The translations under genes and the position numbers were made by a program. The notes below the pieces were generated by a model that was given only the letters and a program-made list of their open reading frames with translations, was not told the origin of the DNA and searched no databases. From assembly GCA_030530285.1 (NCBI GenBank), contig JAUMVD010000003.1, positions 1 to 64,000 on the forward strand: a stretch of DNA of 64,000 bases. The letters are read 5' to 3'. This document shows positions 5,240 through 59,940 of this stretch, piece after piece (position 1 is the stretch's first letter; the number at the start of each line of letters is the position of its first letter). This DNA comes from Bacillota bacterium. Lineage in GTDB: Bacteria > Bacillota > Clostridia > Peptostreptococcales > Anaerovoracaceae.

Positions 5240-6277
5240 ATGAAAAAAAGCGTTAAAGTAGGAAATGTGACCATAGGCGGCGGAGCTCCGGTGAGCATCC
5301 AGTCTATGTGCAATACAAAAACAGCCGATGTTGATGCGAGTCTGGAGCAGATCAGGCGTCTTGAGGAGGCCGGCTGCGAGATCGTGAGGCTTACCGTGCC
5401 CGACCTGGAGTCAGCCGAAGCCCTTGGCAGGATCAAGCAAAAGGCGCATATCCCGGTGGTGGCGGATATACACTTCAACTATCGTCTCGCGATCGCGGCG
5501 ATCGATGCGGGCGCGGACAAGATCAGAATCAATCCGGGAAATATCGGATCGAGAGATAAGGTCAAGGCAGTAGCGGATAAAGCCAGAGCCTGCGGGGTCC
5601 CGATCCGGGTAGGCGTCAACTCCGGATCCCTGGAAAAGGATATATTAGCTAAATATGGAGCGGTTACGGCGGAGGGCCTTGCGGAAAGCGCCCTGAGAAA
5701 CGTCAGGATCCTGGAGGAACTGGACTTCGATGATATCGTGATCTCACTGAAATCATCTGATGTGCAGATGAATTACGATGCGTACCGCATCGTGGATAAA
5801 GCAACCGATCATCCGCTGCACATTGGCGTTACCGAGGCGGGTACGCCTTCTATGGGCAAGATCAAATCCGCAGCGGGCATCGGAGCGCTTTTGCTGGCGG
5901 GAATCGGCGACACCATGAGAGTTTCCCTGACCGCGGATCCCGTGGAGGAAGTGCTGTTCGCCAGAAAGCTCCTGGAGGCCGTGGGAATCAGAAAGAGCAG
6001 CGTCGAGATCGTATCCTGTCCGACATGCGGCAGGACGGAAGTGGATCTGGAGAAAATCGCGGAGAGTGTAGAGAGGCGCGCCGCAGAACTGACAGGTCCC
6101 ATCAAGATCGCGGTGATGGGATGCGCGGTGAACGGGCCGGGAGAGGCCAGAGGCGCCGATATAGGCGTTGCCTGCGGCAAAGGCGAAGGCGTGCTGTTTG
6201 CCCGCGGCGAGATCATCGGTAAGGTGAAAGAAGAAGACATAGCAGAGGAACTGATCAAACTGGCAAGGACAATATGA
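5240..6277 (+). CDS. ispG: 4-hydroxy-3-methylbut-2-en-1-yl diphosphate synthase
   Basis: IspG is the [4Fe-4S] enzyme that reduces methylerythritol cyclodiphosphate to HMBPP in the MEP isoprenoid pathway. The 345-residue, two-domain form is the usual bacterial one. It starts with VKVGNVTIGGGAPVSIQSM, and has VVADIHFNYRLA (about residues 73-84) and the three cluster cysteines: CPTCGR (about 260-265) and MGCAVNGPGEARGADIG (about 293-309). The gene starts 15 bases after rseP behind an AAGAGGTTT-type site and overlaps polC by four bases. Confidence 0.97.
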   Translation: MKKSVKVGNVTIGGGAPVSIQSMCNTKTADVDASLEQIRRLEEAGCEIVRLTVPDLESAEALGRIKQKAHIPVVADIHFNYRLAIAAIDAGADKIRINPGNIGSRDKVKAVADKARACGVPIRVGVNSGSLEKDILAKYGAVTAEGLAESALRNVRILEELDFDDIVISLKSSDVQMNYDAYRIVDKATDHPLHIGVTEAGTPSMGKIKSAAGIGALLLAGIGDTMRVSLTADPVEEVLFARKLLEAVGIRKSSVEIVSCPTCGRTEVDLEKIAESVERRAAELTGPIKIAVMGCAVNGPGEARGADIGVACGKGEGVLFARGEIIGKVKEEDIAEELIKLARTI

Positions 6278-9200
6278 GAACTATCCTGGAAAAATATATC
6301 GATTTTTCACGACTTGAAAATTTTAATAAAGACGACCTGAAGGTTGAAATGACTAAAGCTTCACTAGACAGAGACAGCCTGACGCTTTCTGTCGAAATGG
6401 AGCTTAATGTTGTATTGTCGGCGAGAACAGCGGAGAAGATCAAGGACGATCTGAAGAAGAATATCGATGGAGTCAGACTCGTCGATTTGGATATCAGGTA
6501 TAAGGACATCAAGGCCAGCGAACGGCCGCAGCCAAAAGCCGCGAAGGAAAAACCTGCAGCAAACGGAAACGGCGGGTTTAACGGCAATAACGGAGGCGGC
6601 GGAGGCGGCTGGAAAGGCTCCAGAAAGCGGAAATACATACCGGTTAAAGGCAATGTGGTCATGGGTCGTGAAGTCACCGGAGAACTGACTCCTATCGATA
6701 AAATCACATCGGAATCCGGCAGCGTGGCATTCGAGGGCGAAGTGTTTAAGCTGGAGGCCAAGACGACCAAGAACGACAGCAAGCTGGTCACGATGCTGGT
6801 GACCAATAAAAAGACCAGCATCTGCGTGAAAGCCTTTGTATCTGAAGAAAAGTGGGCGGATATCGAGGAACATCTCCCGCCGAAGACGGCGGTCAAAGTC
6901 CAGGGCAAGGCCCAGTGGGACAGTTTTGACATGTGCGTTTCCGTCATGGCGGACAGCCTGGAAAAAACCAAGAAACAGGAAAGAACCGATACGTATCCGA
7001 GAAAACGTGTCGAACTGCATGCCCATACGAAGATGAGCGCCATGGACGGCCTGAACGACGCCAAAAAAATGGTCAAGACTGCCGAAAGCTGGGGGCATCC
7101 GGCCATCGCCATCACCGACCACGGCGTGGTGCAGGCGTTTCCTGAGGCCGCGGGCGCGGCCAAGGACATCAAAGTGCTCTATGGCTGCGAGGGATACCTG
7201 CTGGATGACGAGGGCCTGATCTCAGAAGACGGGACGATAGATTACAAAGCCAGAGGGACGTATCACATCATACTGATCGCGAAAAACCAGCAGGGACTTT
7301 TGAATCTGTACAAGCTGGTCTCCTTTGCTCATCTGAATTATTTCTACAAGAGACCAAGGATCCCGCGCTCCGTGCTGCAGAAATACAGAGAAGGGCTGAT
7401 TCTGGGATCCGCTTGTGAGGCGGGTGAATTATACAGAGCCGTCCGAAACGGCGCATCTGATGAAACAATCGAGAAGATCGTAAACTTCTACGATTATCTG
7501 GAGATCCAGCCGCTGGTCAACAACAGGTTTATGGTTAGAGAGAACATCGTCTCGGGGGAAGACGATCTTAAGGATATCAACAGGAAGATCGTGGAGCTGG
7601 GAGAAACCTACGGCAAGCCCGTGTGCGCCACGTGCGATTCCCACTATTTTGACCCGGAGGACGCCGTATACCGAAAGATCCTCATGGCCGGACAGGGCTA
7701 TAAGGACGCCGAAAGCGGCGAGGGGCTGTATTTCAGAACCACGGATGAGATGATAGAGGAGTTCTCCTACCTGGGAGAAGAAACGGCCGAGAAAGTCGTC
7801 ATCGACAATACGAATCTCATCGCCGACATGGTGGAAAGGATCAAGCCGGTCCCGGATGACAAGTTCCCGCCGCACATCGACGGGGCGGAGGAATACCTGC
7901 GCAAAGTATGCGAAGAGAGGACTACGGCGATCTACGGAGATCCGCTGCCGGAGCCTATCAGGCAAAGGCTGGACAAGGAGCTCAACTCCATCATCGATAA
8001 CGGATATGCGGTCATGTACAGGTCCGCGGAGATGCTGGTGCAGAGATCCATCTCGGAAGGGTATCTGGTAGGGTCCAGAGGATCGGTAGGATCCTCATTT
8101 GCCGCTACCGCTTCCGGAATCACGGAGGTAAATCCGCTGCCGGCCCATTATATCTGTCCGAACTGCAAGAACCTGGAGTGGGGTGATTCCACAGAATACG
8201 ACTGCGGCGTGGACATGCCGGACAAAGTGTGTCCTGTCTGCGGCACACCGTACAGGAAAGAAGGATTCACCATTCCGTTTGAAACATTCCTGGGATTTGA
8301 AGGAAACAAAGAGCCGGATATCGACCTGAACTTCGCAGGAGAATATCAGAGCAGGGCGCAGAAATATGTAGAAGAAATCTTCGGCGCAGAGAACGTGTTC
8401 AAGGCCGGCACCATCGGCACCATCAAGGACAATACGGCCTTTGGTTTCGTGTCCAAGTACTTCGAGGAAAAGGGCGTCACCCCGAACAAGTTCGAGGTGG
8501 AGCGTCTGGCTAAGGGATGTGAAGGCGTGAAGAGAACGACCGGACAGCATCCGGGAGGCGTGATCATCGTTCCGAAAGGGCATGAGATCTACGAGTTCTG
8601 TCCTGTACAGCGTCCCGCTAACGACGTGAAATCAGATATCATCACAACGCACTACGAATATCATTCCATCGATAAGAACCTCCTGAAGCTGGATATACTG
8701 GGTCATGATATTCCGTCCATGATCAAGCATCTTTATGACATGACGGGAGTGGATCCTCTCTCGGTACCGATTAAGGATGAAAAGGTGATGACCATATTCC
8801 TGGGCACCGAGGGACTGGATATCAAGGATCCGGACTATAAATTCACTCACGGCAGCTACGCGATACACGAGTTCGGAACGCCGTTTGTCAGGCGCATGCT
8901 GGATGACATCAGGCCGACTTCCATCGAGGAACTGGTGAGGATATCGGGACTCTCTCACGGCACAGACGTATGGGTTGGCAACGCGCAGGATCTGGTGGTT
9001 GGCGGCATCACGACGATGAAGGAAGCCATCGCCACGCGTGATGACATCATGAACTATCTGAGGAAACACGATCTGCCTAACTCCGACGCCTTTACCATCA
9101 TGGAGAAGGTGAGAAAGGGCAAAGGCCTTACGGATGAGCAGGAAACGCTCATGCGGGAACATGATGTTCCGGACTGGTACATCGAATCCTGTAAGAAGAT

Positions 9201-37604: not shown

Positions 37605-37940
37605 GGCAGTTCTCCTGATTTTTTTTATTCATTATATCATATTTTATCTTCAAACGCGGCTAAGAATCGATCAACCCTTGATTTAGGACAGGACTTAGCC
37701 GCGGGCAAGAGGAGGATATGCCATGCAATGGTGTCCAATGGAGCAGAATCGCGGCTATATGGATCGAATAAAGACGCATGCAAAGCACATTAGCCGCGCA
37801 AAATATGATGGTGATGAAAAAAGCGCGGCTAAGTCGCGCAACTTTCAATGGGTACAGCCAAGCTTAGCCGCAGATGGCAAAAAAAGAGATTTCGAGCTAT
37901 ACGTGAAGATGTTACAATAAATGAAAAGGAGAGAAGCAAC
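37605..37940. other. Divergent intergenic region between gpmI and addA
   Basis: About 335 bases hold the gpmI promoter (minus strand), the three-hairpin repeat, and probably the addA promoter: TTCGAG (37891-37896) and TACAAT (37913-37918), 16 bases apart, is the best candidate but its -35 is weak. A 65-codon open frame starts at 37723 behind AAGAGGAGG, but it runs through the repeats and I do not accept it as a gene without further evidence. Confidence 0.6.
37655..37871 (+). repeat. Three consecutive inverted repeats of GCGGCTA with equal span
   Basis: CGCGGCTAAG (37655-37664) faces CTTAGCCGCG (37694-37703). CGCGGCTA (37750-37757) faces TAGCCGCG (37791-37798). CGCGGCTAAG (37824-37833) faces CTTAGCCGC (37863-37871). 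The outer spans are 49, 49 and 48 bases, and the loop sequences are unrelated. The arms would form three similar hairpins in RNA, or six binding sites in alternating orientation on DNA. Confidence 0.85.
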
Positions 37941-40900
37941 ATGCCACAGTGGACAGAAGCGCAAAAGCAAACGATAGATGTTAGAAATAAAAATATATTG
38001 GTTTCGGCAGCGGCGGGATCAGGTAAGACCGCCGTTTTAGTCGAGCGTATCAAGACCCTGGTCATCGATGAGCAGGCGAACATAGACAGCTTTCTCATCA
38101 CCACATTCACCAAGGCCGCTTCAGAAGAAATGAAGCAAAGGCTCGAAACCGCCATCAGAGAAGAACTCGCCTCAGGCGTAAGCGGCGAAGCCCGGGTGTA
38201 TCTGCTGCGGCAGCTGCAAATACTCCCGTCTGCCGCGATAGGCACATTCCATTCCTTCGCGCTGGATCTGATCAGGCAGTACTTCTATCTGACAGATCTG
38301 GAGCCGGGATTTGGCATTCTGGATGAAGTACAGCAGGTCATCATGAAACGGGATGCCATCGACAGAGTGTTCGAGAACAGATACGAATCAGAGGATGAGA
38401 AGTTCCTCGATTTCCTCAGAAAACACAGCAGCGACCGAAGCGACAACGCGCTGAAAGAAAACATCATTAAGATGTATAACAGCCTCAGGAGCATTCCGCA
38501 CTATATGCAGTGGGCGGAGGAGAAGACCAGGCTGATGAACGGGGAGAAACCGTCAGAAGCCATGGGACTGACGGAACTGATCAGGACGGAGACGATGTAC
38601 GCTCTGACGAAAGCGCTGGAATATTTCGACAAGGCCGCGCGGATACTGGACACCGTGCATACCCATGAGATCTGCGGCAAAGCCAGAGAAGACGTCCAGA
38701 GGATAGAGCTGGCGATCCGCAATGCCGATGATTTCGATAAGACAAAAGAATTCTTTGACGGAAAATTCAATTCCATGCGGGCCAAAAAAGCCGAAAAGAC
38801 AGCCTATGAAGAGGTGAAGGAAAGAGTCAGCGCACTGAGAGATGAAGGAAAAAAACTGCTGGATAGTGTCGCCGGCAAATATTATCAGCGATCCATGGAG
38901 GATTATGACGCCGACATCAGGGCGGTCTATCCGGACACCCAATTCATGGTGGGACTCATCAGGGAATTTGAAGCGGTTTACCAGCAGGCCAAGGCCGAAG
39001 AAAACGTGATCGATATGGATGACGTCATGCATCGGGCCATAGAAGTGCTGGAAGACGAAAAAGCCGCTTCCGAGCAGAGAGCGCGCTTCCGATACATATT
39101 CGTGGATGAATATCAGGACAGCAACATGCTTCAGGAGACCATCGTCCGCAGAATCGCGCGGGCCGATAACCTGTTTATGGTGGGCGATGTGAAGCAGAGT
39201 ATCTATAAATTCAGACTGGCGGAACCCGAACTGTTCATCAGCAAGGCCAAAGCATACAGCGATGAGAAGGATCAAAACAGCATCGTCATCGACCTGAACA
39301 GCAACTTCCGCAGCAAAAAAAGCGTTACCGAAACGGTGAACGCGGTATTCCGAGAAGTCATGGCGGGATACGATGATAAGGCGGAGCTTCACTGCATGAT
39401 GCCGGATGAATATCCGGGGCACAACACGACGATGCACATCATCGACAGGCATGATTTCGGTGATGACGCTCCCGAAAGGGGCGAGGCGGAAGCGGAGGTC
39501 GTGGCTTCGATCATAAGAGACGCTTTGGGAAGCGAGATATACGATTTCAAGAAAGATACGACGAGAACTGTGGATTACAGGGATATCGTCGTGTTAGCGC
39601 GCGCCGGCAGCACTGTGGCGGAGATCGAACGCTATCTCAATAACGAGGGAATCCCTGCCTATGGCGATACGGGAGAAGGATACTTCGAGACAGTGGAGAT
39701 CCAGGTGTTCCTGAATCTGATGCGGGTCATTGACAATATGAGACAGGATGTACCGCTGATATCGGTGATGCGATCGGTAATATTCGGTTTTGGTGTGAAA
39801 GAAATGGCTAAAATCAGGATCAATCAGCGTGCCGGGAGCTTTTGCAGCGCCGTGCGCGCGTATATGAAGAGCGGTCCTGACAGAGAGTTGAGAGAGAAGC
39901 TTCAGACGATGGATGAGCGGATCAGCCGCTGGAAAGAAATCGCCAGAACCGTGCCGCTGGAAGAACTGGTGAGAATGCTGCTTTACGATACGGGATATTA
40001 TGATTACTGCAGCGGACTTCCGGTGGGCAGACAGAGGATCTCCAATCTGCAGCTGATCGTCGAGAAAGCGGTGCGTTTCGAGCAGAGCAGCCATGAGGGT
40101 CTGAATGGATTCCTCAGGTACGTGGAGGCCATGGCAAACAGCAACACTTCGGAAGCCGAGGCCAAGACCATCAGTGAGAATGAGAATGTCGTGCGCGTCA
40201 TGACGGTCCATAAGAGCAAAGGCCTGGAGTTTCCTGTGGTCATTTTCACGGGAGCCGGTAAAAAGGTCAGCGGCGGCGGCAAAAATAACGCGCCTTTGCA
40301 TAAGGATTTCGGCATCGGACTGCCATTGATCAACAGGACGGAACACTGGAAGAAAAAGACGCTGCTGCAGAACGCCATCTCTGCCAGACAGTCCGAGGAG
40401 AATCTGGATGAAGCCATCCGGATCCTTTATGTTGCTCTGACCAGAGCCAAGGACCGGCTGGATATCGTGGGCAGCGTAGAGAATACCGACAAGCTCAGCG
40501 ATGTGGCAGGTACCGGTTCATATATCGATATGATGTACGCACCGCTTTTGCAGCAGCCGGAGACGGATATACGGATCTATGACAAACTGGTGGAAGCCGA
40601 AGAAACGGAATCCGCCCACAGAGGCAAAGCCCGGGAACTGCTGAAACTTTTGGATGAAGACGTGACGGCGGGAGAAGAAGTCGACGCTGAGATCGATAGA
40701 AGGTTGAGTTTCGTATATCCTCACGTTTCAGAAAAACCTGCCAAGCTGAAGTATTCCGTCACGGAGCTGAACAGAGCCCTAAGGGGAGAAGATCATACTG
40801 AGGTCCCGATTCCGATTGCCAGTTTCGAGCCGGACCAGACCCGCCACCGCCTGAGCGCGGCGGAAGTGGGCACGGTGATGCATCTGGTGATGGAGCACAT

Positions 40901-41357
40901 CGACTTCATGAAGGCGGCAGAGCTGGGTGAAGCTCACGTCAACGAAACGGCGGACAGACTCCTGGCAGACGGCGCCATAACCGAAGAGGAGAGAAATGTT
41001 ATCCATTCCGATAAGATCGCGGGATTCTTTGATGATGCGGTGGGCAGGAGAGCGGCTGAAGCTTTTGCGCGGGGAGAACTCTATAGAGAAAAGGAATTCA
41101 TACTCGATCAACAGATCAACGGCGAGGCGGCGGTAGTCCAGGGAATCATCGACTGCTATTTCCGCGAGGGAGAGGATCTGGTTCTGATCGACTACAAGAA
41201 CAGCTATATGGGAGCGGGCCGGACCGTAGAGGATGTCAGGGATACTTACCGCGGTCAGATCGATATCTATCGCCAGGCGCTGCAAGGGGCGACAGGCAGG
41301 AATGTCAGGGAGTCCTATCTGTTTTTGTTTGATCTGGGGAAGTTCATAACCATGTAA
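37941..41357 (+). CDS. addA: ATP-dependent helicase/nuclease subunit A
   Basis: AddA is the motor and nuclease subunit of AddAB, which resects double-strand breaks and loads RecA. The 1138-residue protein has Walker A AAAGSGKTAVL (about residues 19-29), FITTFTKAASEEMKQRLE (about 53-70), the DEAD-box-like VDEYQDSNMLQ (about 389-399), TVHKSKGLEFPVVIF (about 755-769), VALTRAKDRLD (about 832-842) and the C-terminal nuclease motif GIIDCYFREGEDLVLIDYK (about 1070-1088). It is a little shorter than common AddA (1200-1250). I chose the ATG 37941 because AAAGGAGAG precedes it; the frame is open for 31 more codons upstream. addB normally sits directly upstream, but here that place holds only repeats. 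Confidence 0.93.
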   Translation: MPQWTEAQKQTIDVRNKNILVSAAAGSGKTAVLVERIKTLVIDEQANIDSFLITTFTKAASEEMKQRLETAIREELASGVSGEARVYLLRQLQILPSAAIGTFHSFALDLIRQYFYLTDLEPGFGILDEVQQVIMKRDAIDRVFENRYESEDEKFLDFLRKHSSDRSDNALKENIIKMYNSLRSIPHYMQWAEEKTRLMNGEKPSEAMGLTELIRTETMYALTKALEYFDKAARILDTVHTHEICGKAREDVQRIELAIRNADDFDKTKEFFDGKFNSMRAKKAEKTAYEEVKERVSALRDEGKKLLDSVAGKYYQRSMEDYDADIRAVYPDTQFMVGLIREFEAVYQQAKAEENVIDMDDVMHRAIEVLEDEKAASEQRARFRYIFVDEYQDSNMLQETIVRRIARADNLFMVGDVKQSIYKFRLAEPELFISKAKAYSDEKDQNSIVIDLNSNFRSKKSVTETVNAVFREVMAGYDDKAELHCMMPDEYPGHNTTMHIIDRHDFGDDAPERGEAEAEVVASIIRDALGSEIYDFKKDTTRTVDYRDIVVLARAGSTVAEIERYLNNEGIPAYGDTGEGYFETVEIQVFLNLMRVIDNMRQDVPLISVMRSVIFGFGVKEMAKIRINQRAGSFCSAVRAYMKSGPDRELREKLQTMDERISRWKEIARTVPLEELVRMLLYDTGYYDYCSGLPVGRQRISNLQLIVEKAVRFEQSSHEGLNGFLRYVEAMANSNTSEAEAKTISENENVVRVMTVHKSKGLEFPVVIFTGAGKKVSGGGKNNAPLHKDFGIGLPLINRTEHWKKKTLLQNAISARQSEENLDEAIRILYVALTRAKDRLDIVGSVENTDKLSDVAGTGSYIDMMYAPLLQQPETDIRIYDKLVEAEETESAHRGKARELLKLLDEDVTAGEEVDAEIDRRLSFVYPHVSEKPAKLKYSVTELNRALRGEDHTEVPIPIASFEPDQTRHRLSAAEVGTVMHLVMEHIDFMKAAELGEAHVNETADRLLADGAITEEERNVIHSDKIAGFFDDAVGRRAAEAFARGELYREKEFILDQQINGEAAVVQGIIDCYFREGEDLVLIDYKNSYMGAGRTVEDVRDTYRGQIDIYRQALQGATGRNVRESYLFLFDLGKFITM

Positions 41358-57626: not shown

Positions 57627-57673
57627 ACTGCTGTAATCAGGAACGCGCCTGACATCTACACCTCGTCGGTTCC

Positions 57674-57684
57674 TATGATATAAT
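57674..57684 (+). promoter_or_regulatory. Extended -10 promoter of the barnase-like gene
   Basis: TATGATATAAT holds a perfect TATAAT (57679-57684) with an upstream TG. The -35 region is weak. The expected transcript would cover the barnase, barstar and methyltransferase genes. Confidence 0.5.
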
Positions 57685-57719
57685 AGCACCAGCGAGATAT
57701 TATGGAGAGGGATATGAAG

Positions 57720-58226
57720 ATGATCGGTAAATTCAGAAATAAAGCAAAGCTTATACTCATCATGGCGCTGGCGGTGCTGATGGCCTTTGCCATGGTTTCC
57801 TGCGGGAAGGACAAGTCATCAGAACAGGATGCAACTGCGGCCGAATCGCAGGCATCAGCGGCTACGACCGAATCGGCTGCGCAGACCGAAACCGCCGCGA
57901 TCGATGAGGACGGCGAATACTGGGACAGCGAAGACGTGGCGCTATACATCAATACCTACTGCCACCTGCCGGATAACTACGTCACGAAACGTGAGGCAGG
58001 CGACATGGGATGGCGGGGCGGAAACCCTGTTGAACAATGCGGCAAATCCATCGGCGGTGACAGGTTTTCAAACAGAGAGGGGCTTTTGCCGGAAGGGGAG
58101 ACCTACTATGAGTGCGATGTGAACTATTCCGACAGCTCCAGAGGACCATGCCGGTTGGTGTTTACCGAGGAGGGCACGGTTTACTACACCGAGGACCACT
58201 ACAGATCATTTGAGCAGTTGTACTAG
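57720..58226 (+). CDS. Barnase-like ribonuclease lipoprotein
   Basis: A predicted secreted ribonuclease of the barnase (N1/T1) family, about 168 residues. A type II signal peptide ends in MVSC-G (lipobox, Cys about residue 28), then comes an Ala/Thr/Ser-rich spacer (about 35-65), then the RNase domain. Compared with B. amyloliquefaciens barnase it keeps LPDNYVTKREA (Lys90), CGKSIGGDRFSNREGLLP, the general base in YECDVNY (Glu131), both arginines (Arg141, Arg145) and the His in EDHYRSF (His160), so it should be active. I chose ATG 57720 from the AGAGG spacing; 57702 and 57714 are also in frame. Lipid anchoring is unusual, since classical barnase is free. The barstar gene follows after 30 bases. 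Confidence 0.88.
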   Translation: MIGKFRNKAKLILIMALAVLMAFAMVSCGKDKSSEQDATAAESQASAATTESAAQTETAAIDEDGEYWDSEDVALYINTYCHLPDNYVTKREAGDMGWRGGNPVEQCGKSIGGDRFSNREGLLPEGETYYECDVNYSDSSRGPCRLVFTEEGTVYYTEDHYRSFEQLY

Positions 58227-58256
58227 CAAGCTGCAGCAGCGCGGAGGACAGATAAA

Positions 58257-58595
58257 ATGTGCGAAGAATTAAAGACCATCGTGATAGATGAGATTGAATA
58301 TGATGATAAAGAGAAACTGCTGGGATTTCTGGCGGAGCAGCTGGACTTCCCCGAGTATTTCGGCATGAATTACGACGCCTTCAGCGATTGCCTGGGAGAT
58401 GTATTCACGCCGCTGAAACTGGTGTTTGTCAGCCATGGCGATGCCATAAGCGCAGAGCCGGTGAGAATCGTCCACGAGATCGCCAGCCAGATCGCGGAGG
58501 ACAAAAGCAGCATGAGTGTTGAGGTTTATCCTGCCGGGACGCTTCAGGCAATCGACACCTGCAACGGGGACGATATGGGAGAATGCTATGAGTAA
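58257..58595 (+). CDS. Barstar-family ribonuclease inhibitor
   Basis: A 112-residue intracellular inhibitor of the barstar family. The match is strongest at LGFLAEQLDFPEYFGMNYDAFSDCL (about residues 22-46), which corresponds to the barstar helix and loop that enter the barnase active site (the Asp in NYDAFSDCL is the equivalent of barstar Asp39). GGAGG precedes the ATG. Acting with the upstream RNase, it would protect the producing cell before secretion. It overlaps the methyltransferase gene by 8 bases, so the three genes look like one unit. Confidence 0.87.
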   Translation: MCEELKTIVIDEIEYDDKEKLLGFLAEQLDFPEYFGMNYDAFSDCLGDVFTPLKLVFVSHGDAISAEPVRIVHEIASQIAEDKSSMSVEVYPAGTLQAIDTCNGDDMGECYE

Positions 58596-59940
58596 AGTAT
58601 ATGATGTTTTGAATGCCATAGAGAACGGCCGCGTGCTCTTCGAAGAAATCATGAACAGAGAGAGCAGCAGTCACTATGAGATCCAGGAGATCTACGGCGC
58701 TGACAGGAGCAAAGGCTTTCACGCAGATGCGGACGGGCCCGCCAATCTGCTGGCCTCCGGCGACAATCTGGAGTTCATGGAATACCTCATCAAAGAAAAA
58801 GGCATGGCGGGTAAGATCCAGCTGATCTACGTGGATCCGCCGTTTTTTACCAACAGCAAATATCAGGCATCGGTACGGCTGGAATCGTCCAAACTCGGCA
58901 AGTCGCCTGTGATCAAGACCGGCGCCTATGATGACAAATGGGAAGACAGCCTCGAACAGTATCTGAGCATGCTGGCGGTCAGATTTCACATGATGCGGGA
59001 GCTGCTCAGCGATACCGGATGTATCTGGGTGCATCTGGACTGGCACGGCTCGCACTACGTGAAGATGCTGCTGGACGAGATCTTTGGCGAAGGCAACTTC
59101 ATCAATGAAATCGCCTGGACGTATAAATCGGGAGGCGCCAGCAAGAGAAGCTTTGCCAGAAAACACGACACGCTGCTGTTTTACAGCAAGACGAACAAAT
59201 ACAAGTTCAATATATTAAAAGAAAAGTCATATAACCGGCAGCTTAAACCATACCGGTTCAAGGGTGTGGAGGAATTTCAGAATGAGATCGGCTGGTTCAC
59301 GCTGGTGAACATGAAGGATGTCTGGAACATCGATATGGTGGGCAGGACCTCCTCGGAGCGCACCGGCTACGCCACACAAAAGCCGGAGAAACTGATCAAG
59401 CGCATCATCAACGCCTGCAGCGATCCTGGAGATATCTGCGCGGACTTTTTCTCGGGTTCAGGAACCCTTGGCGCTGTCTGCAGTAAGGAAGACAGACCGT
59501 GGATCATGTGCGATGAAGGAAACGTGGCCACCGCAAGCCAGATTCTAAGGCTCAGCCGTGAAGCCGAAAACGACAGGGCCGGCAGGGATATGGCTTTTGC
59601 AGTCATGCGAAAAGCAGCGCAGACGGAAGATCCGGCCGGTTCCTATGATGATTCCTCGGTGATTTTCTCGGAGGAGCTGGGATGCCTCAGGGTCATCAAC
59701 TACAAGCCGGATAAATTCCAGCTGAGCGAAAACGACGAGGAAATCGCCGCCAGGTATATCGGCGAAGACGGCACATCCGCCATCGACTTCTGGAGCGTGG
59801 ATTTCGACTATGACGGCCGTGTCCACAGGTCAGATGAAATCGTGAGCAAAAAGGACTTCTGCGCCTTAAGAGAAGGGAACATCCATGTGACCGGATACGA
59901 CGTATTTGGCAATAGATTTCAGTGGCAAAAGAAGGTATAA
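58588..59940 (+). CDS. Orphan DNA adenine methyltransferase (beta class, Mod-like)
   Basis: A 450-residue N6-adenine or N4-cytosine methyltransferase. Motif IV, LIYVDPPFFTNSKYQ (Asp83-Phe86), comes before motif I, CADFFSGSGTLGAV (from Asp286), which is the beta-class order of type III Mod subunits. EIAWTYKSGG and a target-recognition region lie between (about 170-280), and RTGYATQKPEKLIKRII precedes motif I. The C-terminal 130 residues (about 320-450) do not resemble a family that I know. No restriction (Res) gene is near, so it is solitary. ATG 58588 follows GGGAG by 6 bases and overlaps the barstar stop. It may be a regulatory or anti-restriction methylase. Confidence 0.85.
   Translation: MSKVYDVLNAIENGRVLFEEIMNRESSSHYEIQEIYGADRSKGFHADADGPANLLASGDNLEFMEYLIKEKGMAGKIQLIYVDPPFFTNSKYQASVRLESSKLGKSPVIKTGAYDDKWEDSLEQYLSMLAVRFHMMRELLSDTGCIWVHLDWHGSHYVKMLLDEIFGEGNFINEIAWTYKSGGASKRSFARKHDTLLFYSKTNKYKFNILKEKSYNRQLKPYRFKGVEEFQNEIGWFTLVNMKDVWNIDMVGRTSSERTGYATQKPEKLIKRIINACSDPGDICADFFSGSGTLGAVCSKEDRPWIMCDEGNVATASQILRLSREAENDRAGRDMAFAVMRKAAQTEDPAGSYDDSSVIFSEELGCLRVINYKPDKFQLSENDEEIAARYIGEDGTSAIDFWSVDFDYDGRVHRSDEIVSKKDFCALREGNIHVTGYDVFGNRFQWQKKV

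Follow-up and report, generated by a model that had tools for sequence, protein, structure and literature searches.

The adjoining genes for a barnase-type RNase, a barstar-type inhibitor and a DNA methyltransferase in the window (the whole 64,000-nucleotide stretch of the Anaerovoracaceae contig JAUMVD010000003.1 analyzed here) most probably represent an independently acquired barnase-barstar cassette that lies beside a long-resident orphan methyltransferase. In the mechanism that we propose, the cassette would have inserted between ancestrally adjacent radical-SAM and methyltransferase genes, and would now sit downstream of a promoter-like element that in close relatives stands ahead of the methyltransferase gene with no cassette between them. 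The direct basis for this proposal is gene anatomy, active-site and inhibitor residues, fold models, synteny and tree position, from which we predict export, lipidation, RNase activity, inhibition, co-transcription and biological role. The striking gene trio would accordingly be the product of the insertion of a common cassette: in this one gut bacterium a common two-gene set now stands beside an unrelated methyltransferase, an unusual neighbor for an otherwise ordinary pair; the three genes are neighbors rather than a new system, and neither half is new in kind.

The first gene (57702..58226, forward strand) encodes a lipoprotein form of a barnase-type RNase of 174 residues, counted from a start at 57702, with the methionines at residues 5 or 7 being other possible starts. 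In profile searches it matched PF00545 with E=2e-16 (60.8 bits against a curated cut-off of 24), its best matches in the PDB are barnase (E ~5e-23), and its predicted fold resembles the barnase and binase crystal structures with TM scores of 0.84-0.88 and identities of 42-46%, depending on the target. Alignment and fold model place the catalytic domain at residues 76-174 (57927..58223, forward strand), where K96, R125, E137, R147, R151 and H166 correspond to K27, R59, E73, R83, R87 and H102 of barnase. The original prediction of a lipobox-bearing barnase-like RNase followed by a barstar-like inhibitor is upheld by the profile, PDB, fold and residue matches, whose strength also rules out a chance resemblance of either protein. 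Its catalytic residues (Lys90, Glu131, Arg141, Arg145 and His160) are all present as K96, E137, R147, R151 and H166, its numbers being lower by six because they were counted from the methionine at residue 7. By its profile match and catalytic residues the protein is predicted to be an active guanyl-preferring enzyme of the RNase N1/barnase family. Residue 125, whose barnase counterpart R59 contacts both guanine and barstar, is arginine in the window enzyme; the same position is occupied by tyrosine in seven near lipobox barnases of the genus and in many other family members. It is possible that this arginine-tyrosine difference co-varies with the subfamily of the paired barstar.

A fold model computed together with 17 relatives shows a helix at residues 11-30, mostly very low confidence across residues 34-63, and a catalytic domain with pLDDT mostly above 90. 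The hydrophobic signal helix and the ensuing lipobox AMVSC, recognized by sequence rule and fold model, span 57732..57803 on the forward strand, with the codon of Cys34 at 57801-57803; they are followed by a disordered linker rich in Ser, Thr, Ala and Glu (residues 35-63; 57804..57890, forward strand; pLDDT mostly below 50). The tetrapeptide MVSC fits the PROSITE-type pattern, comes after the hydrophobic helix, and is preceded by Lys or Arg within the first seven residues, so that signal peptide, lipobox and positively charged N-terminus, the marks of a bacterial lipoprotein, are all present; a lipobox arose in 0.8% of shuffled versions of this N-terminus. The protein would therefore be a lipoprotein anchored at Cys34, as had been predicted. 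Textbook barnase is a free, secreted enzyme, and the anchor had accordingly been taken as unusual, a view that the relatives do not bear out. Among related barnases gathered from the genus, order and phylum, a lipobox is present in 49 of 82 loci and in all seven from the genus, as judged by a regular expression and a hydropathy test that may err in single assignments (L117 is doubtful); the remainder have an N-terminal membrane segment lacking the cysteine or are classical secreted forms. Barnases with a predicted lipid anchor are plainly common in Bacillota, unlike the free secreted textbook enzyme, and offer a testable point on the role of barnases in anaerobic gut bacteria. Among the papers searched, only a survey of polymorphic toxins (PMC3482391) combined the terms barnase and lipobox, and its lipobox passages treat other proteins.

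The second gene (58257..58595, forward strand) encodes a barstar-type inhibitor of 112 residues with no signal peptide, identified by its match to PF01337 (E=8.6e-12, 45.3 bits, cut-off 23.4), by its fold and by two aspartates. The model resembles barstar structures (1b2s, 1brs) with TM scores of 0.75-0.86 depending on the target, and D40 and D44, equivalent to the interface residues D35 and D39 of barstar, are invariant among nine homologs. Beyond residue ~99 the protein continues as a low-confidence tail, which runs into the start of the methyltransferase gene: the methyltransferase ATG, at 58588, comes ahead of the barstar stop codon (58593-58595), confirming the predicted overlap of the two genes at 8 nt. 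Going by what is established for barnase, barstar and the export of lipoproteins, the RNase would cross the membrane by the Sec pathway, receive a lipid at Cys34 and be tethered to the outside by its flexible linker, where it would cut extracellular RNA, while barstar would stay in the cytosol and neutralize barnase that folds before export.

A barstar gene lies just downstream in 74 of the 82 related barnase loci. We also observed variations on this theme. In one genome of the set a lipobox barnase after AddA (L096, G065:C8, ~7183-7686) has no barstar directly downstream, and the sole barstar match of that genome lies ~18 kb off, where a long open frame begins (L098). Barstar domains of the window barstar's subfamily are N-terminal in longer open frames at L098 (5196-7385) and L099 (5766-6704), which by eye resemble a repeat-rich surface protein and a carbonic anhydrase, respectively. 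At L097 (G008:C17) a 654-residue protein with a C-terminal barnase domain (5331-7295) is followed by an unusual fusion, likewise recognized by eye, of a barstar domain and a nitroreductase-like protein in one open frame (7210-8145).

The distribution of the pair is patchy even within the genus, with barnase in 9 of 49 genomes and PF01337 matches in 10, and its sites vary: in four cases it follows AddA, in two a symporter, and the others lie elsewhere. In the window the AddA gene (37848-41357; named from its own sequence and its likeness to the genes of relatives) is followed by an HrcA-type regulator, assigned by sequence, and this usual site is therefore empty of the cassette. A tree built from 85 barnase domains unites the window enzyme with two barnases of g298, another genus in its family (98/92); the group of nine that holds it and eight further family members is split from all other rows, the seven near same-genus barnases included (95/94). 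This placement disfavors a relocation of the pair from the AddA site inside the genus. The simplest reading is that barnase and barstar were gained laterally, the probable source being a different genus within the family, although the donor is uncertain because the tree comprises ~115 columns and leaves many forks open. Direct or inverted repeats flanking the cassette ends and mobility genes were sought and not found, and the GC and GC3 values of the cassette match those of the neighboring genes; as composition, repeats and mobility genes give no sign of it, the move is deduced from synteny and the tree. Carriage by a phage was rejected as there was no phage match and none of 34 pattern matches on viral contigs was a barnase, and carriage by a plasmid as there were only four records in plasmid collections, all below 60% identity and two of them longer than 4 Mb. 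The comparison covers one genome per species, and so bears on the arrangement between species rather than on its fixation among strains. Taken as sequence comparisons, these results indicate that the barnase-barstar pair is a patchy, independently moving cassette. Its patchy distribution and varied sites would also suit a selfish, addiction-like element that is kept since loss of barstar leaves residual barnase, but we regard this as improbable: a barnase predicted to be exported should make the loss of a cytosolic barstar only mildly toxic, and the G065 barnase described above does without a barstar directly downstream.

The third gene (58588..59940, forward strand) has a different history. 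It encodes a beta-class DNA methyltransferase of 450 residues (DPPF first, FxGxG last), recognized by its match to PF01555 (E=6.7e-45, 154 bits) and by conservation, with the DPPF and DFFxGxG motifs retained in all 15 aligned homologs, apart from conservative substitutions at non-core letters. Across families a long stretch in the middle of the protein hardly varies, as would be expected if the enzymes share one target site. Its PDB matches are Mbo45V, RsrI, EcoP15I, CcrM and similar enzymes; none at E<=0.001 is named CamA. Upstream of the cassette lies the gene for a YgiQ-like radical-SAM protein (PF08497 and PF11842; 55785..57626, forward strand), which Pfam matches and synteny identify as the conserved ancestral neighbor of the methyltransferase, and downstream the gene for a HutD/Ves-domain membrane protein (PF05962; 59948..61078, forward strand), its conserved neighbor on that side in most relatives, followed by genes for an RlmL-like methyltransferase and a GntR/aminotransferase regulator. 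Orthologs of the methyltransferase occur in 34 of 37 genomes of the genus, its own included, and the three genomes that lack one are 71-80% complete. Of the 29 genomes examined from the genus, 28 have the radical-SAM gene directly upstream, as do two from another family, mostly with a gap of 2-140 bp, and in none of these 28 and two adjacent cases does a barnase gene intervene; the conserved order is mtaB-HIT-S21-GatB-rSAM-MTase-HutD-RlmL. A scan of the genome collection recovered 54 methyltransferase loci, including Emergencia, Mogibacterium, Anaerosalibacter and Peptoniphilus, some of these loci being from genomes already in the set of 29, and roughly half of the 54 keep the radical-SAM neighbor. 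Other inspected loci adjoin housekeeping genes, such as those for an M20 peptidase, YitT and an RNase H-like exonuclease, and at the inspected loci without the radical-SAM neighbor no restriction enzyme was seen. These relatives (A2, L131-L184) are deeply conserved in Anaerovoracaceae-like and other Clostridia, often directly after the YgiQ-like radical-SAM gene.

The view of this enzyme as a Mod-like methyltransferase without a Res partner stands: the PF01555 enzyme is intact, the neighbors of its gene are those for the radical-SAM, HutD and RlmL proteins, and no Res helicase-nuclease gene, the adjacent partner by which a Type III (Mod/Res) restriction-modification system is recognized, lies beside it. 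Two other candidates for a restriction-modification partner in the window were rejected, a ResIII-type match that is AddA, 17 kb away, and a second PF01555 match that is a PrmA-like gene. Intact motifs, the lack of a restriction partner and conservation in the lineage are all features of an orphan core methyltransferase, and the window enzyme, to judge from its sequence and gene order, is such an enzyme, with its own history outside the barnase cassette. As a long-resident protein it would mark the DNA of its host, probably in a regulatory or housekeeping capacity. More than 93% of prokaryotic species carry orphan methyltransferases, which can act in gene regulation (PMC13395437).

The original prediction had joined all three genes in one unit, possibly a defense or competition module, and had listed the absence of the gene order from relatives first among the signs against it. 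A search for this order in the 29 same-genus genomes, the 54 scan loci and all other barnase loci examined found none, and a methyltransferase homolog adjoins the barnase in 0 of 83 other barnase loci; in one genome (G003) the two genes share a contig but are separated by ~5 kb and four genes. That the methylation state is functionally coupled to the toxin-antitoxin pair in a three-gene module could be argued from the tight spacing, the 8-nt overlap and a single upstream promoter-like site, but both parts live independently, the order is missing from every relative examined, the barnase is predicted to be exported rather than a cytosolic nuclease, and barnase and barstar match no PADLOC model; we consider such a module very unlikely. 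As a transcription unit the trio fares better. A promoter-like site, TCTACA-18-TATAAT with a TG before the -10 hexamer (TGATATAAT; 57655..57684, forward strand), recognized as a consensus match only, lies ahead of the barnase gene, and a search of the forward strand across 57704-59940 gave neither a promoter-like nor a terminator-like site; co-transcription of the three genes is therefore plausible. An extended -10 element also precedes the methyltransferase in three relatives (G031, G032 and G019) in which the gap is at least 70 bp, with a chance expectation of 0.06-0.12 for each; it was not found in the close relative G017 (gap of 69 bp), and in most other members of the genus the gap is too short for a promoter. 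Because the element of these relatives precedes the methyltransferase alone, the cassette would have landed between promoter and methyltransferase. Co-transcription is hence likely but incidental, and the 8-nt overlap could provide translational coupling. It is conceivable, at long odds, that the insertion, by placing RNase and inhibitor under the methyltransferase promoter, made methylation and RNase output co-regulated and jointly selected, as a young epigenetically linked competition unit.

As for the function of the acquired pair, we lean towards scavenging of RNA in the RNA-rich gut, which seems somewhat the likelier role, over antagonism of neighboring cells. This preference follows from the window barnase having no recognizable delivery domain: it consists of a signal helix, linker and RNase domain only, and lacks the long N-terminal delivery or trafficking domains with exchangeable tips that typify polymorphic toxins. 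A lipoprotein barnase that acts as a surface antibacterial effector, killing by contact or shedding, with barstar as its immunity protein, is a less likely, though not negligible, alternative. It draws on the genus relative G008 and others, in which a barnase domain forms the end of far longer proteins, and on passages of the polymorphic-toxin survey (PMC3482391) that interpret barnase-barstar pairs as an incipient toxin-immunity gene order.

According to the same passages, simple barnase-barstar pairs are widely distributed, and the window pair shares with them the toxin-then-inhibitor order and short proteins without polymorphic modules; lipobox barnases are unmentioned in these passages, yet are the common form in the present loci. 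In relation to barnase of Bacillus amyloliquefaciens and to binase (PF00545), the window enzyme is alike in fold, catalytic residues, ~44% domain identity and barstar as inhibitor, but is predicted to be held at the membrane by a lipid anchor and linker whereas barnase is free, and its inhibitor gene is directly linked and from a divergent subfamily. The better lead is the methyltransferase, a conserved orphan of uncultured gut Clostridia that is linked to a radical-SAM gene and has near-invariant central regions. Like CamA of C. difficile (PMC13395437), it is a conserved core-genome methyltransferase without a restriction partner; unlike CamA, it finds its PDB matches among other enzymes, and its gene is linked to that of the radical-SAM protein.
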